Assembly (NCBI GenBank): GCA_008802785.1
Contig: VUYT01000023.1
Span: 1-64,000, forward strand
Direction of reading: 5' to 3'
DNA: 64,000 nucleotides
Source of the DNA: Symmetrospora coprosmae
Taxonomy: Eukaryota > Basidiomycota > Cystobasidiomycetes > Symmetrosporaceae
Below, in pieces: positions 8,335-61,973 of this stretch. The notes under the pieces were generated by a model, which searched no databases, had not been told where the DNA came from, and worked only from the letters and a program-made list of their open reading frames with translations. Numbering within the stretch: position 1 is the first letter of the stretch; each line of letters opens with the position of its first letter. Position numbers and translations under genes: made by a program.

Positions 8335-10384
8335 ATGGCAGACAGGGTGCAGCAGCTGACAGAGGTGCGTCCACAGTATACGCTGCACAAGCAGGTGGCC
8401 AGGCGCTGAGCGTGTCCAGCGCAGGCCATCCGAGTCGTCCACGAGGCAGAGACGCGCAGCGACAGCGCCGATCCCGACAGGCGCATTCAGGAAGCAGCCA
8501 AGCTCCACGCTCAGCGATGCACAGCCCACATCGAAGCTCAAGACTATCCCGCTGCCCTGGCCGATGCTCAGCATCTTGTCCGCGCTCTGCCTGACGCGCC
8601 TGTGGTGGGTCAACGCGTGACCCAGCTGGTCGTACCCACATCGACAGAGACGGCCAACAATGCCATACGGACTGCTGATCTCCCACACATCCTCAGGGCT
8701 ACCTCAAGGCCGCTCGCTGCTACAGGCTGCTCCGCCGCTGGAAGGCCGCAAAGACCATGCTCGAGGCCACACGGGCCAGAGCGCCCAGATCGGACGAGTC
8801 CACCCTCAAGGCGCTCAAGAGCGAGCTCAAGAAGCTACAGGCTGCAATGGCAGAGCCAAAGGTGCGTGTGCAGGTGGTGCAATGTAATGACGCACCGCTA
8901 TCCACTCCTTGAGCTGATCTGTCCCTACTCTAACGCTCACACAGTCCTCGTTCATCGAGAGACTGCCCACCGAGCTGTTCGTCCATGCACTCTCGCACCT
9001 CCCACAAGCAGACATCATCCATGCATCGCACGTCAGTCAACGCTGGCGGACCGTCGTCCACTCTCATCGCGAGCTGTGGACGTCCGTGGAGCTCATCGTG
9101 CCCAACACGTTCACGCGAGCCACTGCCAGAAGCCTAGACGACAAGGTGCAGTTCTACCTCGACAGACTGCAAGGAGCCTCCCTCCAGCATTTCACTGTCG
9201 GCTACGCGTCTCCACTTCCGCCAGCGAGCTCGGTCCCGGGAGCAGCGCCGCCGTCACGGCAGGAAAAGGTCGCCTTCCTCGCAAAGCAGAGGAAGGCTCT
9301 GGGCAAAGATGGCGCCTTGAAGAGAGTCGTCTCCGTCGCGCTCATCAATGTGCCAAGTCACCCGGACTGGAGCATCTACCTCAGTCTCGTCGATGCCGAG
9401 TCCCTTCTTCACCTCAAGTACATTCTGCCTTCACGGGCTTCGCTGCCGGAGGATGCTTCACCAGGGAGCATTCTGGAACGCTTTCCGAAGCTGCAGACAT
9501 TGGTGCTCAGCGATCAAGGGGCAGGTCAGCGACGCAAGGACTGGCCGCCTACGGCAAACCAGTCTTTAGTCCCGGAAGGAAGCTCGCCTCTCCGCGTCTT
9601 GCGCCTCGACCTGTCGGGCCCTTCCGGCTTTGTCGACTCACTGGAAACAGAAGACGAGCCTGGTGCAAAGATCTTCGAGAATCTCACGTCCCTCTACTAT
9701 CGCTCGAATCGCCCGTTACATACACCCTACCCACTCTCGCACCTTCGCCATATCACCCTGCAAAGCACGCCCATTTTCACAACCGGCTCTGTCACCGGCC
9801 ATTCAGACAGCTTCACCCAGCTCGAGAGCCTAAACATACTGGCTGGTGTGCACCCAGTTGCAGTGCGCGCGTTACTCGACGCGACCGACAGCGGCGCGAC
9901 CCTCCGGACACTCGTGCTGGCATCGCCGCTTTCCGGCGCAGACATGCCCGGTGCCCCTGCTTTGCAGCTGGCGGCAGCGTCGGGTATCACATGGGATACT
10001 TTCGTCAGGCGTCATCCGGATCTGACAACCCTCCGCATCGCCAACATCTCCATACCGTCTCTGTCCTCGTCTTTGCTCAACCTACCTCAGCTTACCGAGC
10101 TGTCGTGCACCAACTCGGAGCTCCCGGTAGCGCTACTCGTCAGCGCCATCAGCCCCAATTTGCCTCACTTGCGAAGTCTAGATGTCAGTGGCTCGACCAA
10201 CATCACCAGCTCGCCGCTGCTGCGCCTAGTGCAGAGCAAGGAAGGTCGCCTGCAGGAGCTGGGCATCGAGGGCTGTCGTGACCTGCACAAGGAGGCCGTC
10301 GACTGGCTCAAGAAAAGCGTTGCCAAGGTTAGATGGACGGGATGGGGAGAGAAGAATGCAGGCAAACCGTTCGGGTTTCGGTAG
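8335..10384 (+). CDS. DIA2: Dia2/Pof3-type TPR, F-box and LRR protein
   Basis: Probable substrate receptor of an SCF ubiquitin ligase tied to the replication fork. Four exons: 8335-8364, 8425-8604, 8697-8861, 8945-10384; 604 aa. Residues ~1-125 form TPR-like helices (AQRCTAHIEAQDYPAALADA, then GYLKAARCYRLLRRWKAAKT). An F-box follows at ~130-175 (IERLPTELFVHALSHLPQAD, then HVSQRWRTVVHSHRELW). The rest is leucine-rich repeats ending in NLPHLRSLDVSGSTNITSS and an LQELGIEGCRDL repeat. TPR then F-box then LRR is the order of budding yeast Dia2 and fission yeast Pof3, which help unload the CMG helicase and protect replication forks; the assignment rests on architecture, not alignment. Pairing with histone H3 fits an S-phase role. 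Confidence 0.75.
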
Positions 10385-13073: not shown

Positions 13074-16000
13074 TCATTGCTGGTAGAAGCCATTGAGATC
13101 CTGCTGGCTGCCGCTCGAGGGGTACATGCGGTGTCCTCCGGCACCTCTCGGCAGCCCGCCCTGCCCGTACGGCTGATGCTGCGGCGAGCCTTGCGAATAC
13201 TGCCGAGCCATCTCGGGCGAAGGAGTACGATAGCCCCCGTTGTCATGCCCGTACTCCTGACCCTCGTATCCTTGCCGAGGCGAGAAATGCGGAGCCTGGA
13301 CAGGGGATGCCCCAGCCGGTAACGGCGGATACGAGTAGGCATCGGGCGGCGGCGCCGTCGAGCCCTGCCGCCGAGGGGCAGGAGCATGGTACGCCGGCGC
13401 GGGTGTACGGCCAGAGTAGGTCGACTGAGCATCATCGTATGGTCGTTGCCGTCCGTCGCCGTGGAAGTAGCCCGAGGCGTTTGAACCGTATGCCAATCCC
13501 ACGTCGTCGTACGAAGCCATTGCCGTCTTTTGGTACCCATTCCCTCCTGCGCCTCCGGAGTACATCATCGCTCCGGCCGGCGGAGCAGGCGGGTAGCCTG
13601 GTCCGGCACCCCTGCCTGCCATTCCGCCTGCGCCGTAGAGCAGATTCTCCTGTGATTCCTCCGCTCCGTGAACGCCATACCCATTTCCTGCACCATCCGG
13701 CAGCTGATGGCCCGGCGCCCGGCTGAGGTCGTACGAACCTGGTGTGCCAGGACGGTCCATACCGCCATTGGCACCTGGACCATGAGCGAGATATTCTCGC
13801 TTCTTGGCCTCGAAGAAGCCCTGCGCCGCGTCCACACGCTCAAACGGTGTCTCTGCTCCAAGTGCCGTCGAGATCGAGCCCGTCTCCCAGGCATTCTGTT
13901 CCCGCAGATACGCCTCCCTGCTTTGCTGCAGGTCCGATTCTTCGATAGCCTTGAAGCGCAGCCCACCTGTGTCGGCATTGGCAATACCTCCTCCTGCTTT
14001 GAGACCTGCCTCGTAGTTGCCCACGTAATCATCCTCTCCCATCCTGCCAGAGTAGATATCCCGCAAGAGATGCTGGCTGGCTTTGTGAATCATCGGAGTA
14101 AAGAGAGGCTCGCTGAGGACTGGATTGCCGAACCGCTTAAAGAGTCGCGCCTTCCGCTCATCAGACTTGTGCAGAACAGCATTGGCAACTTCCTCCTCTG
14201 ACGGGTTGAACCAGTCGTACTGCTCGTCGAAGGTGCGCGACAGCGCAATCTTGAAGATGACGATGAGCAAAACAGGCGGAACGCAGGTGATTGATCGGAT
14301 CCATCCTTGCTGGAGACCGATAGTGAGGACGAGGATGGCTGCAAAGATGGCGTGACAGAGCGAGCATGGTCAGCAGACGAGGCATCTATACTGCAAGAGA
14401 TGTCCTCACCTTGCTGAAAGACCAAGCAGATGAGCATCCGGTTGACGAGCAGGCGCCACATTCTTCCGCCTGACTCGACCTCGGTAACCTGGACATAGAT
14501 GAGCATGTACCTTTAGGTAGGAGCGAAGCGTACTGTCAGACTCCGTGTCGTCACTGTGAGAATCGTAGTTTACCCACTTATAAAGCATCGACGAGATGAA
14601 AAAGGTGATGGCCGCAATCGCGGGGACGACAGGTGCTAGAGGTGCATAGATGAGAGCGACCGCTACGACGAGCAGACTGTTGGCGATGTAGACCGCGTAG
14701 TCAAACGGCGGCGGACGCGTCCACTCTCGGATCTCTCGAGGGGTGCGGCCGAATGCCTTTGTGCGGCCCCAAACCCAGATGAGGTTGATGACCTGAGCGA
14801 TGTCGAATACGGCAGCCCAGGCTCGAACGGCGAGGAAGCCAATCCAATAGTTCGACTGTGACAGGTATGAGTTGTTGATGCGGGCCGGGAGCTTGTTGAC
14901 TTCGCGTAGGATGGTCGTCAAGGCGTTTCCACCCTTGCCGAATCTACGGAGGTGCGAAGGTTGTCAGCTAGCCTGCTCTCGGCAAGAGTCCAGGAGGAAT
15001 GGTAAACGCACTCGATGACGAGCTGTAGGGCACACATTAGCATGCAGTCGACGAGCTGAAGTCAGCAGTTCCCCCGAAATCTGCTGGCGCGGCCTGACGC
15101 ACCTCGGTGATCAGATTGAAGACGACACCCAGCAACGAGAAGATGAATAGCTGCGTGATGATGAGAAATGCCCAATACCGAGCTAGAACTGTCCTATCAA
15201 CCTGGTTACGAGTGAGTAGCCCCTGCCTCGAAGTGAGTGACCGCATGATTATTGGCAGGACGAGCTGCAGAATGGCGGAAAGGAGAGGCGGAGCGATACC
15301 GACGAAGGCAGAGAAGCTCCATTGGCTGTTAATACTCCACCGGTCAAGAAAGCCGACGTATTGTGTGATAGCCTGAAAGCACAAACGGGTCAGCCTGCGC
15401 ATCGCCAACAGCAATCTCGAGCCAATCGAAACGCACAGCCAGGTTCGCAAGGAAAGATACGGCAATTAAGGGCACTGTGTAGAAGCCACAGAGCACGATG
15501 AGGAGGATCGCGAGCAGACCTCGGCCCATGCCCTTCTTCTTGTGGTAGCTAGACAGATTCTTCCAGATGATGTCTGGGCAAGCGGACCCATCAGCAAAGG
15601 CCTGACAAAGCTCTCAGAAGACGAGCTCACCAGAGGGGAGTGGAGCAAGCGAAAACTTGCAACCCTTGACCTTCTTGTCCTGCAAGCGCTTTGCAACCAC
15701 GTGTGCGTACGGCACAGCCTGGAAGCTGGCGAATCCGTACGGCTCGCTCTTCTTGTCCGAAATAGTATCCCTGGTCTGCTCGACCTTGTCCTCGAATCGC
15801 TTGATCTTGGCCGTCATGTAGTCGATCGTGTCCACCTTTTGACCTCCAATGCCCATGAACCCTCCGATCTGCATGGTGGGCCGCTTCGAGCCAAGCTGTC
15901 CATTCTTGGTGTACGTGGTGAGAACCTTTTCGAGCTCGCGGACAGCGTCGTTGTGGGCTTCGACTAGCTCCGCCAGCTGACCGACTTTGCGGCCGATGTG

Positions 16001-17111
16001 CACGCTTGTCGTTGGGTAGGGAACGTTCAGACTGGTGAGCAGGCTGAGCACGCCTTCGTCTGACTGGTACTGCCGCTGGATGCCGGTAATCATGATGCTT
16101 CGAGCGTGTAGACTGTTGCAGTAATCTTTGCTGCGGAAGTAGGCGTGGCGCAGGGTGACGACGGTCTTGTAGCTGGAGGATGGGGAGACAGAGCACGTCA
16201 GTCGGGTCCTTGACCGGCCACTGGTGCGTAAGCGCAAACGCTGAACTGACTTGCTCCAGATGAACCAGAAGGCGATGAAACAGATGATGTATGATAGAGC
16301 AACGTGGGCATACAGCCAGTTGCCCTTTACATTGGAAATTGTCAAGCTCGAGAGGAAATTTCTCGAGCTGCTGGGAACGTTGTTGAGGTTGTAGATGAGG
16401 TTTATGGGGATGAGAACGCCACAAGTGACGACCGCAACCGTTGCGAAGCTGGACGAAAGGGTCAAGCTTCAGCTTCTGGAGATGCAGTTTTGGCAAAGCC
16501 GAGGCCGCGCTTGACCCACAGCCACCGGCACATGCGAAGAAAGCGAAGGAAGACGACGGCATCGAGCCCGGCGTCGACGAGCATGTCCGTCTCCTTCATT
16601 GTCCGCAAGGGTCCGATCCATGACAACAGGCCATCATCGATTTTGGGGGGCCGCTTCTCTTCTGTCGAGTATTTTGAGCGAGGCGCGTAGATAAGCTTGT
16701 TCCGGGGCCGGAGGACGCTGAATGCGAAAATGGTGACGAGCGAGAGGGCAATCATCTGTGCGATATGGCTGATGAGCTGAAGCGAAGCGGTCAAAATGGC
16801 GAGGGGGCGTGGTCCAACTCACCAAAGCCAGCTGGACTGTTGCCGTCAGAACGTTCGAGCCATACGAGCAGGTCAGCCCTTGCCATACGAGAGGAACGCC
16901 CCGCACGAGCAACCGCGCAAAGTTGGCCATCATCTTGGACTTACTGCCCACTGCCCGCGGGTTGACGTTCGAGAGCTTCTCCTCGTAGCGCTGCGAATGG
17001 GCACAAGCGAGCACCGATGGTACCGTCAGCTTACAAAGTATGGGCTGAGCCATGATCTGGATCCAAGCCGACCTGGAGGAGGTCCTTTGCAGCATCGCCT
17101 GCGTCTGCCAT
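13074..17111 (-). CDS. CSC1: CSC1/OSCA/TMEM63-type calcium-permeable stress-gated channel
   Basis: Predicted polytopic mechanosensitive/osmosensitive cation channel. Twelve exons on the minus strand: 17073-17111, 16945-16990, 16823-16836, 16526-16776, 16251-16466, 15631-16172, 15437-15573, 15103-15372, 15012-15055, 14578-14943, 14410-14510, 13074-14338; 1096 aa. N-terminal membrane segment ends in FSVLRPRNKLIYAPRSKY, then VDAGLDAVVFLRFLRMCR, the family signature before TM2; a cytosolic loop with ARSIMITGIQ and PTTSVHIG; then the multi-helix core (DIIWKNLSSYHKKKGMG, WSFSAFVGIAPPLLSAIL, QSNYWIGFLAVRAWA). The C-terminal ~250 residues are a Gly/Pro/Tyr-rich cytosolic tail. Exons of 14, 39, 44 and 46 nt cluster around the ends; the 14-nt exon and the 44-nt exon (an 11-nt version, 15012-15022, is also in phase) are the least certain parts. 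Confidence 0.88.
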
Positions 17112-28389: not shown

Positions 28390-30680
28390 GGCGGCGTCCG
28401 CTCGGCGTTGTCTTGGACCCCTTCGTCGTTGATAGTGCGCTCGATTGGCGCGACGACTTTGCGCCGTTCGGGCATGTTTGCGGACTGTAGCTCTAGGAAG
28501 TGCGCGTCGAGACTCATGAAGACTTCGCGAGTGACTGTGTCGTAAAACTTCCAGATCTTCACCCCGAGTTCGTATCCGATGAAGGTGCACAGGCGCGAGT
28601 GCGGACAGAGGTGTCGGCGAGTGTGTTTGAGAACGTGAACATACGCTTTGCAGCCGGGCAAAGGTTGTGGACCACGTTGTACGCAGCTAATGCTTCTCCC
28701 CAGAAGCGCTCAGTGAGATGAGCGTCCTGCAACATGGCAACGATTCTTTCCTCGGCCGTGCGGTTGAAGCGCTCCGGAACTCCGTACCGCTGCGGGGTAA
28801 CTGGCGCGGTCCGGTGCCGAAGGATCCCTGTTTCTGCGTATAGTTGGCGGAGATCGTGTGACTCGTACTCGCCTCCTTTGTCGTCGCGAACGACTTTGAC
28901 GCGCGCGCGGGTCTCGAGCTCGACTTTAGCTTTCCATGCTGAGAAGGCGCGAATGGTGTCGGACTTCCGTACGAGCGGGTAGACCCAAAGATAGCGCGAG
29001 AAGTCGTCTATGGAGGAACCCCAGTGTCGAGCTTCAGCACGCGACTGGACTGGGAGCACGTGTAGGTCGGTGTGAATGAGTTCGAATACTTTGCTGGCGC
29101 GAGTGTTGGAAAGAGGTAAAGGATCCCTGTGCTGTGTCTCCAGAACGCAATCTTCGCAGAAGCAGCGCTCTATCTGTCCGGTGACCTTAAAGCCTGTGGC
29201 CATGTCTCCGTCGTGTAACACCTTGATGGCGTCGTGATTAAGGTGACCCAATCGCTTGTGCCAGATTTCTGCTGCGGTTGCGGCCATTTGCTCCGTCGTG
29301 TTGCAGATGCCTGCTCGACCGTCGAGACACGCAAGGCTGCCGCGACGCTGTGCGCGGAGGAACAAATGTCCGTCGCGATAGAACTGCATTCCCTGATCTG
29401 ATCCTTCAAAGGTGGATCCAGCTTTCTGCATGAAGGAAAGAACGGCGAATAAGTTGAATGCCAAAGCTAGAACGTGCAGGACACTGGTCATGGCGAAAGA
29501 GGCGCCCTCGTAATTGGTGAAGAGCAGAGTGCCCACACCTTCGCTGAAGACTAATGCACCTTGTACTACATGAATCGGAGTGCGGTACGATCGATACTCA
29601 ATGAAGTAACCGCGGTGCGGAGTCATATGAGAGGCAGCGGCGGTATCACAAATCCAATCGTGAGCGTGCTGTCCAGCTTGAATAACAGCATGGGCACTGA
29701 CAGGCAGCTCCATAGTCGCAATGGCAGTGTGGCCAGCGTATTTGCCACTGTTTTTGCCGAAGCGCTGCTGCTTCAGGCAGTCCTGATGCTCATTCGAAAG
29801 CTGCTTGACGGCGTCGCACTCGGCGGTGCTGTGGCTCGCGGTCTTGCGAAAGATGCAAATGCAGTGGGACGTGCACCACAGGCGGTGCTGCTGTGTAGAG
29901 TGCCGTGGTCGTCGAATCGTTTTCCTCGGTGTTTTCGCTCGAGAATGCTTGTCGCACATCGGCAAGAGTGAGGGAAGCAGCGAGAGAGGGGGATCGCTTG
30001 AGAACCTCGTACTCCGAGGGTAGTCGTCTGAGGGAGCCCAGACTGAAGTCAAGAGAGCAGGTGAGCCCTTCCCCTTGATCACAACACTAATGTTGCAATC
30101 GAACTAGAGACTGAAGTCAAGAGAGCAGCTATCTTCATTTGACTATCAGCTTCGATCGCTCCTCTATCCTTCAATACTCCAATTTATCCTCCAGCTTGTC
30201 CAACGTGTAGTCGGCGTCATGGAGACGTGAGAGCGTTGACGGTAGCCATTGACGCGGCTTTCGAAACACTGAAGCGTCTCGTCCGGCTGCTTCTTGGCGA
30301 AAAGGAGATCTCCTAGAGCGTTGATACGCTTCTTCTGAGCATGCTGCGCCGAGAGTGCTCTACATTGCGACTGGATCGTCGTCAATGCCATCGACGTGAA
30401 CTTGCTGGGTGTCGTCCAACGACAGTACCAAGTCGGCAGCAGCAAAGCCTCTATCATTGTCCCACTTCTCCTGCAGCTTGTCCTGCGCATCCCTCGTTTC
30501 GCTGTCCGCTCCGGGAGATGGGTCGGCTGGTCGCGAGCGAGAAGCGGCGACAAGCGACCAAACACCACGCTTGCGAAAGCGGGCTTTCATCCTGAATTGC
30601 TTCCAGTTGACTGCTTTGAGCATTGGATTATTCGCTGCCTTCCCTTCACTGCCGTGGGGGGACTGTCCGTGGGACATCGT

Positions 30681-43238: not shown

Positions 43239-46027
43239 ATGCCAAAAGCTGTCAGTAGGGCCTGTCTCTCGCATCTAGGGTCAACCTCTAGCTCACACAT
43301 CCCATCGCATCACAACCCCCGCAGTCCACCCGTTTCCGCACGCGAAAGATCAACTTCAAGTCGCAGATACAGATCTATGTCGGATCTCTCGATAACCCGT
43401 TCGAAGACGACTATGGCTCGTTCGCATCCGCCGTTCACAGTCCAGGCGGAGCTGGCGCAGGCGGCATCCATGGCTTTCCTGGTACGCCGTCTGCAGGCAG
43501 TGGCTTCAGCAGCGGCATTGGAGGAGTGGCAGGAGCGGAGAATGGCGACGAGACTATCCGCGTCGAAACGGGTGTCGACAAGGAGGAAGAAGGGGAGCTC
43601 CACCTCCAAGCCGTCATCTCCGCGTCGGCAGCAGCCTTGCAGCGCTCAACAAGAGGCGGACCAGGAGCCAATGGTACAGCCAACGGACTTGGCAAGGGCG
43701 CAGCGGCCGTCGCGCACATCCCTACACCGGACGCGACAGGCTTGGCCAAGAACTACGAGGCGCTGTACCGGCGCAATGCCTACGTCGACCCGCAGTCATA
43801 TATCCGATTCAGCGACACGGTCGAGGAGACCATGGGCGTTGCATATACAATGGACGAGGACGATGAGGATTTCCTCATCGACCACAACGTCCGTGCCGCA
43901 CGGGCCAACAAGTTGGCTCAAGGCTCGCCCGCTTCGGCCGCCGGCACTGCTCCTTCATCCCGGCCCGCATCACCTTCATCTGCCGTGAACGGCAAGCTTC
44001 CCCATACGTCCGTAACCCCGTTACAGCATGACGATCAGCTCCCCACTGCCGATACCTCTCTCATCTCTCTGCAAGGCCACTACCCCCGAATCCACCACAT
44101 CAACGGCCTTAAGCTCCCTCGACCGCCTCGCAACAAGGATAAGAGCAAAGATGCCTTCGCTGCAAGCAATCCGCTCATCTCTGAGGACGACTTTGAACTC
44201 ATCATGGATCTGTTCGAGCGCATAACCGACAGGAAGACGCCTACCCTTCACCTCGTGCGCGCTCTAGGATGGTCTCATTTCGAGTACAGCCCACTGACCT
44301 TGTCCCATGCGCCATGATTAGGACGTCTCTCGAATACCCACCCTCGAAGATCTAGAACCCTCTTTTCCCACCTACCTTCCGCCCTGGAGCCTCAGATCTG
44401 CACGCACGCTATCAAGGATCATCTACCCGCACTGGAAGTCGCGCCGTCTAGGTGCTGGCGGAAAGAACATTGTCCCTCAGCTAGACGTGAGTGTAGAACT
44501 CTAAGCTATGCGGAGCAATCCAACTGACGCTTCATTCGACACGCTAGTACGACATCACCAACGAGACGCCATACGTCTGCTTCAGGCGGAGAGAAGTCAA
44601 GTTCGCCCGCAAGACGCGAAGGACCGACACCCAAACTGTCGACAGGCTAGTCCGCCTTCGCTCCGATCTCTCGAGCGCGCAGGAGCTGTTACTCAAGGTG
44701 CTTGAGCGAGAGCGGTGTAAGCGGGAAGCGCTACTCGCCGATGCACGCATATTTGAGGGGCGGATCCGGATGAGGGAAATGAAGCGCAAGCTGGGCGAGG
44801 GTACAGGTGATGAGGCCATCCTCATCGCGCGTAAGGAGAAGAAGCGGCGCAGGGACGAATTGCAGCAAGGCATGCCTGGGTAAGTCCGGACCCAGCTGAC
44901 ATCCGATCAGGGCTGTTCGCTGATGCGGCGTCCTATTTTGCAGCACGACCAAGATCGTCTTGCCCAACCGCGCAACTCTCACACCTCTCACGCCTGGACT
45001 GCTACCCGAAGCGCTTCCTCTCTACAAGGACCGTACAGTCAACGCGACTCAGCGACTGGAGAGGGACATGCAGCGGAAGCGCGAGCAGGAGGTCGGGTGG
45101 GAAGACCTCACGGATACGGCTTACGCGCCTCTACCTCCACCAATGCCATCTCGCTATTGGCGGGTCGCAGAGCGCCGTGATGGCCTTCCGGAAGAAGCGC
45201 TCAGGGTTCCATCTCACCGCATCGTCTTCGAGCGGGACAATTCGCCTTTCGTCCAGAGTATCGGCCATCGGTACCGGAAACGCTTGGGACGTGGAGGCCG
45301 AATACATCTGGATCGCCTGTCCTTGCGTTCCGCGCGGCCGCCAGACGAAAACGACGAGCAAGACAGGCGGTTCCTCTCGCGACAGCAAGAGCGATGGCGT
45401 TACGACAGCGACGTCATTACCGAGCTCCCTGCGCCCCTCGGCCCGATGGTTGTCGACGACTTTGACACCAAGTACTCGGCTGCACGGTCCTGCCTGGTTA
45501 CCCAAGTCGATCTCGACTCTTTGGGCCCGAATCTTGTCTACATCGACGATGCTATGCGGTGGACGGCAAAGGAACCCGATCGCCTTCCTCCCATCCAGGT
45601 GCTCGGCAAGCTCCCAGGTCAGCAACGCTCGCATCCTGCTGGCAATGGCGGCATGGGTATGAGCATGGGCCTGGGAAGCGGTGGCGGTGGCGGCGGATTC
45701 CCTAACGGCATTAACGGCGGTCTGTCCAACTCTGTGACGGCCAACATGGCCAGCCAGATGTATGCGGCAGCCAATCGTGCCATGGGCGTCGCGCAGGCTC
45801 AGGCCAATTCTGTTGCAGCGCAGCAGCATCACCAGCAGCTCCGACGGGCGAGCTCGGGTACCCCTAATCCTCCACCTCAGCAGCAGCAACAGCAGCAGGC
45901 CCAGCAACAATCAGCTCAGGCGCTCCCTCCTCTACCAACGTCAGCGCAGCAACTCGGCATGCAGTCAAGCGCGCCTCTACCGCAGCCGCCTCAAATCCGT
46001 CGATTAATGTGGGAGAATGGTGCCTGA
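43239..46027 (+). CDS. EPL1: EPL1, Enhancer of polycomb-like subunit of NuA4 acetyltransferase
   Basis: Scaffold of the NuA4/piccolo histone H4/H2A acetyltransferase. Five exons: 43239-43250, 43325-44254, 44322-44486, 44548-44879, 44944-46027; 840 aa. After a 12-nt first exon (MPKA), RFRTRKINFKSQIQIY is the start of the EPcA domain; later FELIMDLFERITDRKTP, then PPWSLRSARTLSRIIYPHWK, TPYVCFRRREVKFARKTRRT and a long basic coiled segment (VLERERCKREALLADARI) follow as in the family. The C-terminal ~130 residues are Gly- then Gln/Pro-rich. A start ten codons long at 43225 (MSSEQCQKLS, using a GTAGGG donor) is an alternative first exon. Both keep phase. Confidence 0.93.
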
Positions 46028-54607: not shown

Positions 54608-57013
54608 CTACGCGGGACTGGCAACCTCCTCTGCAGAGGCTGCCTCGACTTTGTCGCCATCATTCAGACTACCAGCGACCAGACCCTGCCGTCCCTTTTG
54701 CCGCTTCGCCTCCTTCTTGGCCAGAGCGTCGGCCTTTTGCTTCTGCGCCCGTGCCTTCTTGGCCTCCTTTGCCTGCTTCCGCGCCTCTGCCTTTGCAGCC
54801 TCCTTGCGCTCCTTGCCCAGATGCGCCTCGCACGGCTCGGCGTCCGCGTCATTCTGCGTTGCCAAAGTGCAGCAAACGCGGCAGACGCGCCGGACGCACT
54901 TTTGCGCCGCAGCGGACCCTTTGCACTGTGGGCATTGGACAGTCTGTGGGAGCAGCTGCACGCCGGGCGGGAGCTCCGTCTTTGCCTTCTTGACAGTTTC
55001 GTTGCCGTCTGTAGGCAGCGTTATTGCAGTCAGCCTTGGCCGCGACAGATGGCCCAAGAACCGCAAGACGCACCACCGAGGGCGACCCCTTCATGCTGCA
55101 CAGAATCGAGACCCCGCTTCTTCAGATTGACACTTGCAGCCTCCGTCTCGCTCAAGGGCCGCATGCATGGCTGGCAGTGCGAATACGGAATGCTGCGGCT
55201 GTCTTGCGTTTCTGGCAGCGCAACCTTGGGATCCGTGGTAAGCTGGCCGCTCGCAAAGTCGGCCTGAGAATCGGGGCAAGGCATCCCACATCAGTCCGGA
55301 TCATCTCGTAGTGGTATGCTCCAGCCCACGCCGCCCGTCCCTCACCTCGAGTTTCCTGCCCAGCTTCTCGGTCAGCTCGACATACTTTGCAATGACCTCC
55401 TTGAACTCCTCCGTCCCGTCGGAAAGGCTCGAGATCCTCGAGAGCGCGTCCCGCACATCAATGTGATGGCCCGCGTTGAAGACGGGCTTCCACATCCGGA
55501 AAAGGTGCGCCTTGACGGCCGACAGCGCCGTCTCAGTCTCGAGGCCAGCCACGATAGTGAGGTACTCGAGTGATAGCTGCACGATGGGGTAGTAGGCGAC
55601 CGTGGCACGATCGACTTTGAAGCGATTGTCGATGATGTCGAGCGCCGCTAGCAGCTCGGCTGGCAGTTGTGAGCGGAAGGTCTGCGCCTGAGACCGGTTG
55701 AGCGGCTCGAATAAGGCCGGGTTGTACAGATTTCCCTCGGCGGACATGATGCCGTCTGCTTTCGTCTCCTCAAGACAGCGGCTGATGTCTTCATGCGTGA
55801 GGATGTTGCCGTTCGCGAACAGTGGGACCGAGACGGCTTCCCTCACTTTGCGGATCTTGTTCCTGCAGGCCGGGCGCGGGTTGGGCAGGGGCTGTCAGGC
55901 CTCGCGCGCAAAATACGAGGGGACGTGTGCGCCCTCACCAGTCGGCCAGCCCTGTCAATTGCCCTTTCTGGTCTCGCGTACGCCCGTGCAGGGTGAGGAT
56001 CTGAGCTCCTGCGCCTTCGAGCATCTTGGCATAGGCGAGCGTCTTGTCTAGATCATCGTACACTCGGAACTTGGCTGTGATTGGGACAGCGAGGTTTTTG
56101 TGAAGATGACTGACTGCAGGACTCGCCGTGTCAGAAGAATTGACGCGCGGATCCGCTGAAAAGCGCCGCACTCATCCGCTCAATCAGTCCCCAGTCTTCC
56201 ATGAGAAAGGCGCCGTACTGCCCTCGCTTTGCAATGCCTTGCGGGCAGCCCTGCAAAGGGTTCCGCTTAGCCGTGCCAAGTGGCTGCAAGTAGAGCCCAT
56301 CTCGCCACAGTCACGCACCAGATTGAGGTCGACCGCATCCACCTGACCAGACTCTGCTAGCCTGGTGGCGGCCTGCAAGAACGTGTCTGGGTCGTTTGCG
56401 CAGAACTGTGCGACGACGGGCCTGTCGAGCGTTTCGTGGCCTTCTTCGCCCGCGTGTAGGTCAAACTGCTCCTTCCTGTAGCGCGAGTTCTGCGGGTTTG
56501 CAAAGAGTGCGGCGTGTATCATGGGAGTGTAGGCGACGCTCGAGCCGTGCAGTCGCGAGAGGATTCGCCAGGCCTGCGGATGAAGTCACGCCAACTGTGA
56601 GAGTGGACTACGGTGTTGAGTACGGGCGGCGGAGGTCCAGACTGACGAGCTCGGACTGGTCGACCATGGGCTGGGACGGCGAAAGAGGTTTCAGCTGCTG
56701 GCATTTACTAGCGGGAGCCAAAGGGTGTCTCAGTGGGGAGAATTAAACCGACTGCGACGATGAACCTAGGCGAGCCCATGCTCCTGAAGAGGTTCCAGCT
56801 GGTGAGCTTCTTCACGGCCGGCGGGCCCAGCGGTCGCTCAATGGCCTCTTCTGCTGCGGCGGTAGCGCCATTCCAGTCCGCGTTCAAGGCCATGGTGCCC
56901 GTGGTGGTGTATCTTGGCCGTGGGAGCGTCCTTGCAGTGCTGCAGGCCAGCCTGCGTATGGAGAACGTCGTCGTCGTCGTCGTCGCTGTTGTGCGTAAGA
57001 TGGATGGTGGCAA
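54608..57013 (-). CDS. DUS1: DUS1, tRNA-dihydrouridine(16/17) synthase
   Basis: FMN enzyme reducing U16/U17 in tRNA D-loops. Eight exons on the minus strand: 56753-57013, 56647-56670, 56319-56573, 56172-56250, 55939-56113, 55346-55862, 55077-55263, 54608-55008; 632 aa. Signatures: [75 protein letters not shown] (catalytic Cys), [40 protein letters not shown] and [12 protein letters not shown]. The C-terminal ~180 residues add a Cys-rich basic extension ([20 protein letters not shown]) and a Lys/Ala-rich helix. The first 40 residues before an internal Met (56893) are Arg/Thr/Ser-rich without acids, like a mitochondrial presequence. Exon 2 is 24 nt. Head-to-head with LCL2. Confidence 0.93.
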
Positions 57014-57769: not shown

Positions 57770-58358
57770 TGGATGGACGCCCGCCCAATAATACGATCTA
57801 CACCATCACCCAGAGCTGGCCTCCCGGGTGTACGCCGCTTTGAGGTCAAGCTGAAGCCCCTTCTGCTGGCCCGCAAACCGACGGCAGAGACTTGGTCGAG
57901 GTGCACCCGCAAGATCTTGCGCATTGCGCGAATCTGGAAGCGGTGGCTGGCCAGGCTGATGCTGCAGCCCTGGCCCATAATCAGAGAACGGAACAGGCGA
58001 ATTATGCACGGCCCATTATGCTTCCCATGATGCCAGCTCTCTCAGGCAGACATGCAGGACTGCGCTTCGTGTCCGGAGCGAGCACAAGGGGGTCTGGTGT
58101 CGAGTCGGGACAGGGCCAGGCCTGTAGTCTGGCCTGCACGCTAAGCCTTTGTATATGGAAAAGCCGGCAGGCAGCCATTCCATTCACGCCTTGCCATCTT
58201 ACAATCCGATAGGCACCCGACTTGAAGGTTCTTCTGGCCCTATACGAGTGGCAGGCTGCCGGTCGGACAGCTCTTTCTCCATTACACCGATCCTACTCCG
58301 CGATCCTCCTCTCTGAATTAGCTCTGAATTAGCACAACTATCCAGCGCTGGTCACACC
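57770..58358. other. Intergenic between LCL2 and the secreted-protein cluster
   Basis: About 590 bp. Open frames exist on both strands at about 57800-58200 but have no recognisable content or supportable splice structure. CTGAATTAG is repeated in tandem at 58313-58333 just before the first cluster gene. Confidence 0.45.
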
Positions 58359-59097
58359 ATGTCCCCAGCCACGCTTGTCCAGCGTGCCTGCTTCGCTTTG
58401 GTCGCACTTCTCGCTATGGGGCTGGGCGTATCTGCGGCAACCGACCACGACACCTTCCCGGCAGTTCCCTTGTGGTCCGACTTCGAAGGCGCTACGGACG
58501 CAAGCTCTGGTCCGAGCGCTTCTAACAGCTGGCTTTCCCTGCAGTATGACGACCACACTTGGAAACGTTCTAAGGACCTGAACAAGGTCTTTCTGAATTT
58601 GACGAATGAAGACACCCATGTAAACCGTGAGTTCCCGGCCAACAGGAACCGGGCGGCGGCCAGACGCTGATTGCCGATCCGATTTTCCGATGCAATTCGT
58701 TATTGTCCCGACTGGCTCGCCTCTCGCAGAGGGATTATGGTATACTCCGACTGAGACCGGAGCTTACACGGAAGTGTCCTTCCAAGACGAACCGGAGGCC
58801 GACGGTGCGTTGGCAGCTAACCGCTTCTGGATGTAGCACACATGCGTCTGAAAGTCTTGCCGTTCGACAGGAACTTGGAAAGTGAACTTTAAAGCCGAGA
58901 CCGTCTGCGTGTACAAGGACAACAATCCTACGCTGGGCACATGCACCTGGGTACGCTACCTCGCTAGCTAGCTGTCCACCACCGCAATGAGGCTGACTCG
59001 TGTTGTCCAGACCTACACCGAAGTCGATGGCGACAGCCCGGCTCCCATCACCCAGGACTTTGTTTTGGTCACGAAGTCGGTAGTATGGCAGTACTAA
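58359..59097 (+). CDS. Small secreted protein A of a tandem three-gene family
   Basis: Four exons: 58359-58626, 58730-58804, 58871-58950, 59011-59097; 169 aa. A signal peptide (ALVALLAMGLGVSAA) is followed by TFPAVPLWSDF and SNSWLSLQYDDHTWKRS. After the first intron come GLWYTPTETGAYTEVSFQD and GTWKVNFKAETVCVYK, then the end LGTCTW, intron, TYTEVDG, finishing FVLVTKSVVWQY. The mature protein has two cysteines, 13 residues apart, in the third exon. Exon phases 1-1-0 and the positions of WL..YD, the second-exon block (75 nt) and C..CTW are shared with the genes at 59831 and 61231. Family not recognised; being small, secreted, fast-diverging and tandemly arrayed, it resembles fungal effector-like proteins. 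Confidence 0.75.
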
Positions 59098-59258
59098 GAC
59101 TTGATCGCTCGAGCAACGTCCACGCGTCCTCGTGAATTTCAAAGTCTGTCTTGTTACCGACGTCGAAACCCCCCGCTGCTTTCACTGCTTCACTGCTTAG
59201 ACAGCCTTCACCCTAACTGACAGAACGCCCTTACCTGTCGTATCATTAAGCTCTCATG

Positions 59259-59699
59259 CTATGTACACTGCCGGCCCTTGACAGCCAGTATCGTGCAGAG
59301 CGTAATGTCCCGCCTTGGTGAGCTATCCACCTTACACAGATCTTCCATAGCCAGCAAATGACCCTCACTGCACACATACGTCTCCGATCCCCGGCCGTTG
59401 ACGATTTTAGTTGCCTCCTGTCGTGTCCCATCCTGACACGCCCAGTACTTGAAGAAGTGCTCCATCATCGTCCTTGCCCGCATTCGCAGCATCACCCATC
59501 CGGCTCGAGCGTGCCAGACACACGCAGCTAGCGTGCAGAGGTTCACGGCTTTCAGCTCCGCGGTTTCCCAGGCGGCCATGCGGTGATCCGCGGCACACCC
59601 GGGTGCTAGTAAGGGAAGCTCGTCGACCTGACTCGCTCGCCGGACGTGTTCCACGAAGCCTTTGATCAAGGCAGCGGTCGCGCTCAGCTGATAGTGCAT
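59259..59699 (-). CDS. Uncertain open frame between secreted-protein genes A and B
   Basis: 146 codons, minus strand, uninterrupted, in the 730-bp gap between A and B. It has no signal peptide, six cysteines and no motif I recognise. An open frame of this length can arise by chance in G+C-rich DNA; it may be a real small gene, a shadow, or nothing. Kept only because no other gene occupies this stretch. Confidence 0.25.
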   Translation of the reverse strand: MHYQLSATAALIKGFVEHVRRASQVDELPLLAPGCAADHRMAAWETAELKAVNLCTLAACVWHARAGWVMLRMRARTMMEHFFKYWACQDGTRQEATKIVNGRGSETYVCSEGHLLAMEDLCKVDSSPRRDITLCTILAVKGRQCT

Positions 59700-59830
59700 C
59701 GCTTCTGCCCCGATTTGCTTCGACTGCCATCAACGCCTCAAAGGTAGCGCTCGCCAACATCACCTTTCTGCTTCACTCCAACCCGTTACTGCCGTAATCA
59801 TTAGATAAACCGCAATCAGCTTCCCCCACC

Positions 59831-60519
59831 ATGCACACCATCACCGAGTATGCACACTTCGCCTCGGCTCTGGCCCTTGCCGCTGGACTTCTTGCATCCG
59901 CCGAAATTGTGGAGGTTCCAAAGCCTCCGGCCTATACAGACTTCGACGACTACAAAGCCACTCTCCCTTCCGATCTCTCCAGCTTGACTTGGCTGATCCC
60001 GCAGTACGATAACAGCGGATGGACACGTTCCGGGGACTCATTCCTTGATCTGAATCTGGTCCTCGACGGGAAGAGCGTTAGGCGTGAGCAACTCGCACTT
60101 TATCACGTTCTAGGGCTCCTTCTGCTTTGACTGATCGATGCGCGCTGCCGCAAAATGCCGTTCGTGCTGCAGAATCGCTTGATCACAGCTCGTCCAACTT
60201 ACACATTGCGTTTTACATGGCTGCGTCGGATGACGTCGACAGCGATTGTGAGCGGCCCATTCTAGGCCTTCAGAGTCGTACCCCTCTCTGACCTGCCTTT
60301 GTCCGTTCAAGGGTCATACACGGCAGACATCGCTTGTAAGCTCGCCGATCAAGCTCAGGCTACATGCACATGGGAGCGTGGAACCACTGACAAGCTGTCA
60401 ACTGGCTACAATGATCTGACACGCGCTTCCTCCAGACCTTCACCCCACAGGGATCTGCCTCGTCGTCACCTAAGGAGCAGACGTTCGATCTTTCTATTGC
60501 GAAGATCAATGTCGCCTGA
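59831..60519 (+). CDS. Small secreted protein B of the tandem family (last donor non-canonical)
   Basis: Exons by homology with genes A and C: 59831-60083, 60173-60247, 60312-60373, 60436-60519; 157 aa if so spliced. A signal peptide (ASALALAAGLLASAE) is followed by PAYTDFDDYKATLP and LTWLIPQYDNSGWTRS. Then come HIAFYMAASDDVDSDW, YTADIACKLADQAQATCTW, TFTPQGSASSS and FDLSIAKINVA. Exon 2 is 75 nt as in A. After CTW the expected GT donor reads GA (TGG|GAGCGT), while the acceptor TCCTCCAG is intact. If the intron is kept, the frame shifts into an unrelated Arg-rich tail. So the gene may be splice-damaged, use a rare donor, or hold a base error. Confidence 0.65.
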
Positions 60520-61230
60520 CCGCGCGGCTCAGTGCTGGCAGGCCCTGTCATCATTGAGATGAGTCCGCTCCTACTCAATCACCTCCTCTCGTCTCCTACG
60601 TCTTCCACATCCGTGCCCGAGTCTCGTGCCTTTTACATGTACTAGTCTGCTGCATTGCGGGTCATTCACAGTAAGCTATGTCAGACAAGCTCGAAAGCCG
60701 ATCGAAGTCGCTCCGCCTAGCGTATCGGCAAGGTTTGCGTCGACGCCTTCTGCCTCCACTGAATCGCCAGATGCCGCCCACAGTGCTCAACCAGCTCGGT
60801 CAGCTCTCGCATGTCGAGCCCAGCTGAGTTGGTCGAATCTAATTCTGAACCACGATCTACTCCAGGCGCATAGCACTGACCATCGAGCTGACGGCCTGCA
60901 CCTTCGACGCTGACCGTATCGGACCATAGACGTAGCAATGGCCCAAGACCGCTAACATTGGAAGGGCAGCGCGGCGACGCCTACCCAGATTTTGACGGCT
61001 TCTTCCCAAGCTGGGCCCCTTCAGCTCCGCTCGGTAGCAAGCCATAGGCTCCCTCGCCTCCTAGTCCGGCACATCGCCTTTCTGCTGCCTTTTGAAGTAC
61101 AAAGGGGCAAGTCTCGATTTACAAGAGCCTACGGGGTCGCAGTAGCTTCTCTCATCCGACGAAGAGTGAGCACAGATCACCACCGAACCTCTCCAGGGTA
61201 CTTCACATCATCATCATCGCTACAATAGTC
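60520..61230. other. Intergenic between secreted-protein genes B and C
   Basis: About 710 bp. A short frame from 60678 (MSDKLESRSKSLRL..., 49 codons) is visible but unsupported. No fourth family member could be traced here. Confidence 0.45.
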
Positions 61231-61973
61231 ATGATCACCGCAAAACGGACACCATTTCTCCCGGCACTCGCCTTGTCAGTAGGACTGGCTAGCTTCGTAG
61301 GCGCTGCATCGCACACATTCCCGGGGATCCCCTCGTTCAAGGACTTTGGCTCGCCTGTCAAGATGGCGTTCAATCTCCCCGAAGACTGGCTCGCAGTGCC
61401 CTACGACAGCAAAGACTGGAAATTTAGCGAGAAGCCCGGCTACGAGACGGCGTATATGCTGTCACGCAGGATGGGCACTGACGTAGTCGAGAGTCAGTTC
61501 GCGGGCGATAGATCAGACCGCCAGAACAGGACGGGACTGAGCTGTCCGCCATTTCGTTTTCTCCAGCCCTCCTCTCCGAGAACAAGGGCGGGACGCACGG
61601 AAGCTTCGACGTAAAATTCGGCGGCAGCAACGGTATGCGTACTACGTAGAGTCATATGGAGGACGCTTACTTGCTATTCTGACTGCCGGAGGCTCCTTGG
61701 CTGTCTGCGATCTACAGACAAACATCACCACGCCTGGATCGACTGTCCGTATATGAACGAGGCCAGCACGAAGGGCAATTGTACCTGGGTGCGTCATCGC
61801 TTGAATCGCTGTGAGCTCAGCAATTACAGCAGCATTGGGCAGACACTGAGATCTGGTACCTTTCTGTGCAAAGCCAGACTTACGAGAATGATGAAGGGAA
61901 GGATGGACAGGAGTGGAGGAATGAGGTCAACAAGGAGTTTACGCTCAAGACTGTTACCATCGAGACGGCCTGA
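61231..61973 (+). CDS. Small secreted protein C of the tandem family
   Basis: Four exons: 61231-61492, 61567-61632, 61718-61788, 61878-61973; 164 aa, all junctions canonical and in phase. A signal peptide (LPALALSVGLASFVGAA) is followed by SHTFPGIPSFKDFG and EDWLAVPYDSKDWKFSE, the same block as in A and B. The second exon reads LLSENKGGTHGSFDVKFGG. The third has WIDCPYMNEASTKGNCTW: the two-cysteine core ending CTW. The fourth reads TYENDEGKDGQEW and ends FTLKTVTIETA. Its TFPGIP..DF opening is closest to gene A (TFPAVP..DF). Same strand and spacing pattern as its neighbours. Function unknown. Confidence 0.75.

Follow-up and report, generated by a model that had tools for sequence, protein, structure and literature searches.

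Three neighboring genes for small, probably secreted proteins lie on the + strand of a 64,000-nucleotide stretch of Symmetrospora coprosmae DNA (positions 1 to 64,000 of contig VUYT01000023.1, hereafter the window; the contig is referred to as C15), at positions 58359 (gene 1 or g1), 59831 (gene 2) and 61231 (gene 3 or g3), and they raise the question of whether they belong to a genuine family, how far this family extends in the genome and what its products might do. The tandem family of three that the initial annotation described is real, but its size was understated, since at least 13 members are present in several places of the genome. Our analysis directly established the genes, their common exon plan, their homology, a set of conserved residues and an enriched word in their upstream sequences.

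All three window genes could be rebuilt from the sequence at the positions and with the four exons each that they had initially been given, and in the rebuilt models the second exons of 75, 75 and 66 nt and the intron phases of 1, 1 and 0 likewise held. The exons measure 268, 75, 80 and 87 nt in gene 1, 253, 75, 62 and 84 nt in gene 2, and 262, 66, 71 and 96 nt in gene 3, and the models are composed as follows:

58359..58626, + strand: gene 1 exon 1, encoding a signal-peptide-like N-terminus and the WL..QYD...W block
after exon 1, + strand: gene 1 intron 1, GTGAGT..TCGCAG
58730..58804, + strand: gene 1 exon 2, 75 nt
58871..58950, + strand: gene 1 exon 3, encoding C-x11-C-T-W
59011..59097, + strand: gene 1 exon 4, encoding TY...QDFVLVTKSVVWQY, followed by a stop
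59831..60083, + strand: gene 2 exon 1
60173..60247, + strand: gene 2 exon 2, 75 nt
60312..60373, + strand: gene 2 exon 3, encoding C-x9-C-T-W; the next intron starts with GA instead of GT
60436..60519, + strand: gene 2 exon 4, encoding TF...QTFDLSIAKINVA, followed by a stop
61231..61492, + strand: gene 3 exon 1
61567..61632, + strand: gene 3 exon 2, 66 nt
61718..61788, + strand: gene 3 exon 3, encoding C-x11-C-T-W
61878..61973, + strand: gene 3 exon 4, encoding TY...KEFTLKTVTIETA, followed by a stop

A GT-AG splice enumerator without phase constraint picked the same models for genes 1 and 3, both of which were contained in the scoring profile, and missed the gene 2 model because the third intron of this gene starts with GA. 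Use of the next GT (60378) as donor shifts the frame, so that the homologous tail of gene 2 is lost; the frame of its exon 4 was matched by the family profile, which contained gene 2.

Searches of the genome (20,053,935 bases in 77 contigs) with single members as queries, together with a family profile run on 200 kb of C15 and three further stretches, located 13 loci, namely the three in the window, six more on C15, three on a second contig (C20; near 3.9, 239.1 and 264.5 kb) and one on a third contig (C5; near 92.5 kb). This number is a lower bound, and the final two queries added no new locus. The six additional members on C15 form a second cluster (C15:140478-147886, - strand), which lies outside the window, some 79 kb away from the cluster of genes 1-3. 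Four exons with intron phases 1, 1 and 0 fit 12 of the 13 genes, the exception being member m142 of the second cluster. When the enumerator was run without phase constraint, these phases were best in 9 of 12 members; the profile used in this test held six of the 12, three of which had earlier been modeled under the 1,1,0 constraint, and among the six members outside it the same phases were best in four (m146, m145, C20a and C5). The exceptions were gene 2 with its GA donor, m142, which has no intron 2, and C20b, for which a model with phases 1, 1 and 0, its exon 2 measuring 48 nt as in m145, was then set by eye. Two other models were placed by eye and not by the enumerator, that of gene 2 and that of C20c, which needs a 185-nt first intron and thus exceeds the enumerator limit of 135 nt. 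The TTAGGG repeat was not found in the two end stretches of C20, and a telomeric location of the two members near its ends is not supported. One end of C20 consists of a long poly-C run that is probably an assembly artifact.

The homology of the members was evaluated by scoring each of 12 members against a profile of the other 11, which resulted in whole-protein scores of 62.6-106.8 bits and in 15.5-41.2 bits when exons 2-4 were taken separately, the background being matched to whole proteins only. The best of 13,869 spliced background candidates, derived from 735 of 1,706 non-family ATGs in the 200 kb of C15, reached 9.3 bits. Since the profile score contributed to the choice of the member models, whereas the background models were picked purely on their splice score, the comparison is biased in favor of the members, and the gap between members and background is large despite this bias. 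C20c, which was kept outside the leave-one-out test, scored 39.7 bits against the 12-member profile, of which the part for exons 2-4 amounted to 10.1. At the level of sequence, a real tandem family with a common exon structure is confirmed.

The alignment of all 13 members shows the initial Met, one Pro, a Trp, a Tyr, a second Trp, one Leu and the second core Cys in every row. The core cysteines, initially placed 12-15 residues apart, were measured 12, 10 and 12 residues apart in genes 1, 2 and 3, respectively, and are separated by 10-21 residues in the 12 members that possess both. The CTW core reported for genes 1-3 is indeed present there, but it occurs in only 3 of the 13 members, the remainder having C-x-[W/M/F/I/L], so that all 13 proteins carry one of W, M, F, I and L two residues beyond the second core Cys. 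An N-terminal hydrophobic stretch was present in all 12 members tested, judging solely from hydropathy and from the -3,-1 rule, and no later membrane-like stretch was found in these 12 members; in agreement with the signal peptides that had been proposed, the family proteins are probably secreted. The mature proteins have isoelectric points of 4.2-5.5 in 11 of 12 members, with C5 at 7.6, and a simple propensity average over 12 members weakly suggests short strands near both the W/YD block and the Cys pair as well as near the tail.

The word CAAAGG upstream of 12 of the family genes is a new observation. Upstream of the three window genes it is found at the following sites:

58146..58152, - strand: ACAAAGG, 5' of gene 1, about -213
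59659..59665, - strand: TCAAAGG, 5' of gene 2, about -172
59738..59744, + strand: TCAAAGG, 5' of gene 2, about -93
61099..61105, + strand: ACAAAGG, 5' of gene 3, about -132

A scan of 7-mers in the 500-bp upstream sequences of 12 members yielded a single outlier, TCAAAGG, which was present in 9 of the 12 with a background of 0.047 per piece (1.8e-6 after a Bonferroni factor of 8192). Within 350 bp upstream, CAAAGG was found in 12/12 members compared to 7/65 controls, [AT]CAAAGG in 11/12 compared to 2/65, and TCAAAGG in 9/12 compared to 0/65, where the controls were the upstream sequences of 65 long non-family open reading frames (ORFs) counted from their first ATGs, some of these ORFs presumably being inner exons. 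CAAAGG occurred in 3/12 members in the distal stretch from -1050 to -701 and in at most 5/12 in 400 dinucleotide shuffles. Because blastn between the 12 upstream sequences detected no similarity at E 0.01, the word does not appear to result from simple recent copying. The shared word supports a putative co-regulation of the genes, not a role toward a host. In the whole window, WCAAAGG occurs 24 times relative to 12.9 expected, a count that 0 of 100 shuffles reached, and one copy lies inside intron 2 of gene 2 (60296-60302).

The fast divergence after duplication that the initial annotation assumed was not borne out. The mature parts of 12 members have a median pairwise identity of 0.23, and seven paralogue pairs showed nonsynonymous distances (dN) of 0.52-1.22 and synonymous distances (dS) ranging from 1.52 to saturated, with dN below dS in all five pairs with finite dS (dN/dS about 0.29-0.47). 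These values speak for old duplicates under constraint, with dS being unreliable at such distances. Recent duplication combined with positive selection was considered and found no support, given dS from 1.5 to saturation. A tree of 12 members had long end branches, and good support was limited to a single one of its nine inner branches, the one joining m145 with C20b. The notion of rapid change likewise found no support in unnamed ORFs from other sources, which keep from 53/79 to 79/79 of the exon-1 residues past the signal peptide.

These ORFs were obtained by alignment searches of a collection of 5.8 billion proteins, which listed seven proteins each and 12 different ones in total, all of them unnamed ORFs and each spanning exon 1; no named relative was found in this collection, in which short-word and length matching can miss annotated fungal relatives. 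Their sources are marked lgn or ena, which we take to be environmental or read-archive contigs, and the 12 ORFs were paired by eye with g1, g3, m147, m146 and m143. P0001-P0004 and P0009 agree with the genome at all or all but one of the exon-1 residues past the signal peptide (P0001 with gene 1 at 66/67), and the other seven keep 62/65 and 52/65 (P0008 and P0010, respectively, both with gene 3), 70/79, 53/79, 61/70, 58/68 and 54/69. For the three differing ORFs that extend at least 13 residues into intron 1 (P0008, P0010 and P0005), 175/200 exon residues were kept versus 22/48 intron residues, a comparison that left out seven ORFs with 2-3 intron residues and two near-identical ORFs. This drop in conservation at the edge of exon 1 and intron 1 supports both the coding nature of exon 1 and its end. 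As a yardstick, a PHM7-like ORF of the window returned from the same collection matches at 99%, taken as the same species, and unnamed relatives that aligned partially, at 72-80%, its best organism-named match being 46% (Trametes coccinea).

The family was not recognized initially, and this was upheld by searches of Pfam, NCBIfam and PDB sequences, none of which gave a significant match. With 12/12 members scanned and C20c left out, nothing exceeded the curated cut-offs of Pfam (best E 0.032, single member) or NCBIfam (best E 0.13, single member), and the PDB sequences gave 0 matches up to E 10 with a 12-member profile and a best E of 0.13 with a 6-member profile. The window was also scanned against Rfam, to which it had no match.

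A proposal that would account for these results, and to which we assign an even chance of being correct, is that the genes encode a co-regulated, mostly acidic, disulfide-clamped orphan family of secreted effector- or surface-type proteins with at least 13 paralogues. Each protein would likely form one compact strand-rich domain composed, from the N-terminus on, of a P...W(L)...Y(D)...W block, the conserved Leu, a late strand pair and a final v.L..V.Ie strand, in which one disulfide of short span would hold the late pair together (roughly AxIxCx[Y/F] ... Cx[hydrophobic]). With this core held while the loops drift, the paralogues could be able to bind different extracellular partners, and the genes would be switched on together by a factor that recognizes CAAAGG as an HMG-box-like site, at roughly 90-340 bp upstream. 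Most likely, the proteins would interact with a host or another organism, either as effectors or at the surface; we infer this role, including the host interaction already suggested in the initial annotation, and likewise the binding factor. A further step, which we regard as doubtful, would be to see in the family a new structural superfamily of secreted scaffold proteins of fungi, defined by the four-exon 1,1,0 plan and a single short-span disulfide, with its scattered members governed by one HMG-box-type regulator; if true, the fungus would possess a set of co-expressed binding proteins that share one fold but address many targets.

Several observations weigh against the proposed effector- or surface-type family. 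In m142 (C15:141975-142120, - strand) exons 2 and 3 are fused, so that this gene has two introns, the placement of its last exon is uncertain, and its first core Cys, present in the 12 other rows, is replaced by Tyr. The mature proteins contain exactly two Cys in only 7 of 13 cases, with three or four in five and three in m142, and a single disulfide is therefore not general. The third intron of gene 2 (60374-60435, + strand), whose donor was not mentioned in the initial annotation, begins with GA (TGG at the exon end followed by GAGCGT), the only non-GT donor among 35 introns of 12 genes, and may stem from decay of the gene or from an error in the assembly, or may mark a rare type of intron. 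The strand prediction rests on a crude propensity average, and positive selection was not apparent from dN and dS of the seven paralogue pairs. In a cruder control with 60 random groups, each of 12 pieces, the best count of any word reached 9 for 7-mers and 12 for 6-mers; as the best word of the family only equals this maximum, it is the word-specific test that carries the claim. Finally, the thirteenth locus, which was not used in the discovery of the word, has no CAAAGG within 350 bp, the nearest being at -431.

Other explanations have to be weighed against the same evidence. A divergent branch of a known fold, e.g. RNase-like, MAX-like or galactose-binding jelly-roll, masked by low identity, is possible though rather unlikely, and as it concerns the fold it would be compatible with any of the proposed roles. 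The W...YD...W block is reminiscent of a motif in some sugar-binding jelly-roll domains. Moreover, powdery mildew candidate effectors, many of which are described as ribonuclease-related, keep an intron position while their sequence has eroded (PMC3582587). Such an origin received no support from the PDB sequences, although a shared fold lies beyond the reach of a sequence search, and the core Cys spacing of 10-21 differs from the 34-49 used in searching for MAX effectors. Artifacts, in the form of chance ORFs, mis-spliced non-coding sequence or decayed copies, appear very improbable; the GA donor of gene 2, the weak fit of C20c in exons 2-4 and the three models set by eye could be taken as hints of them, but the leave-one-out scores are well apart from the background models, the exon plan is common to different contigs, and the unnamed ORFs display the exon/intron contrast.

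With regard to function, the proteins could act at the surface or in the matrix at the mating or dikaryon stage, in cell-cell contact or fruiting and not toward a host, under an HMG-box regulator of the pheromone-response type. The enrichment of CAAAGG upstream of the family fits this explanation, as this word matches the core of the pheromone response element of smuts (PRE; ACAAAGGGA), to which the HMG-box factor Prf1 binds (PMC4466345, PMC3248468), and sites with one mismatch to the PRE occur in the 350 bp preceding three genes, g3, m141 and C20b (raw count). However, the commonest form here is TCAAAGG, and the exact PRE occurs in only one of 13 upstream sequences (700 bp each; 469 bp for C20c), at -632 of m146 and thus in none within 350 bp. 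We regard the mating explanation as unlikely. Still less probable are antimicrobial or competitor-directed proteins of a killer-protein or lectin-like type, secreted by a free-living or surface-dwelling fungus. Proteins of this type would be consistent with a small, multigene and probably secreted family with a conserved Cys pair, and with the presence of counterparts among the unnamed ORFs from other sources, but the Pfam, NCBIfam and PDB searches produced no match to any toxin or lectin family.

The remainder of the window contains a retrotransposon fragment of the Ty1/copia type (28562-30103, - strand), with Pol_BBD and gag_pre-integrs domains and with rve just above and below the usual limits. 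Neighboring ORFs are the following:

572-1735, + strand: Rad54_N/SNF2
8918-10384, + strand: F-box/LRR
15617-16468, - strand: PHM7_cyt/RSN1_TM
43292-44317, + strand: EPL1
56184-56522, - strand: Dus

Set beside known systems by description, the genes appear to form a new family of a known kind, that of clustered, orphan, small secreted proteins, and they show the small size, predicted signal peptide, tandem paralogues and lack of a known domain that mark clustered fungal candidate effectors in general. A family of at least 13 genes is thereby added to the clustered secreted orphan proteins of fungi, in which gene structure and an upstream word tie together paralogues with a median identity of 23%, and two handles become available, the word as a path to the regulator and the 13-row alignment as a starting point for structure. 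Similar to the smut PRE and Prf1, a CAAAGG core is located upstream of genes presumed to act together, but here the word most often takes the form TCAAAGG, and the GGGA end is missing from the majority of sites. MAX effectors (AVR-Pia, AVR1-CO39, AvrPiz-t and ToxB) are described as small, secreted and very diverse proteins with one conserved Cys pair (PMC4624222), features that are shared by the probably secreted family described here. However, their search criterion in this source is a Cys spacing of 34-49, outside the range of 10-21 found here; a six-stranded beta-sandwich is a further mark of MAX proteins.

Likewise, cluster 19A of Ustilago maydis (e.g. Tin1-1 to Tin1-5) comprises clustered secreted orphan families without recognized domains, which are reported to have mutual similarities of 34-48% and 33-51% in two families and to lack both a characteristic cysteine spacing and paralogues elsewhere in the genome (PMC4081774). 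Clustering, secretion (probable here), orphan status and low mutual similarity are thus alike by description; in contrast, the paralogues found here are spread over three contigs, one of which carries two clusters, and the four-exon plan and the Cys pair are conserved. The candidate secreted effector proteins (CSEPs) of Blumeria are RNase-like and have been called 'RALPH' in later literature. They are described as secreted paralogues linked by a conserved intron position and by cysteines (PMC3582587, PMC6759760), the cited intron being located between exons one and two and an N-terminal aromatic-x-Cys being present in 307/491 (PMC3582587). In the first 30 mature residues of the proteins described here, with cleavage sites estimated, aromatic-x-Cys was found in 0/13 members, and by description the two systems differ further in that three introns with phases 1, 1 and 0 are present here in 12/13 genes and that the Cys pair is encoded by the third exon. 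What the Blumeria CSEPs and the present family have in common are small secreted paralogues whose gene structure is conserved under an eroded sequence.

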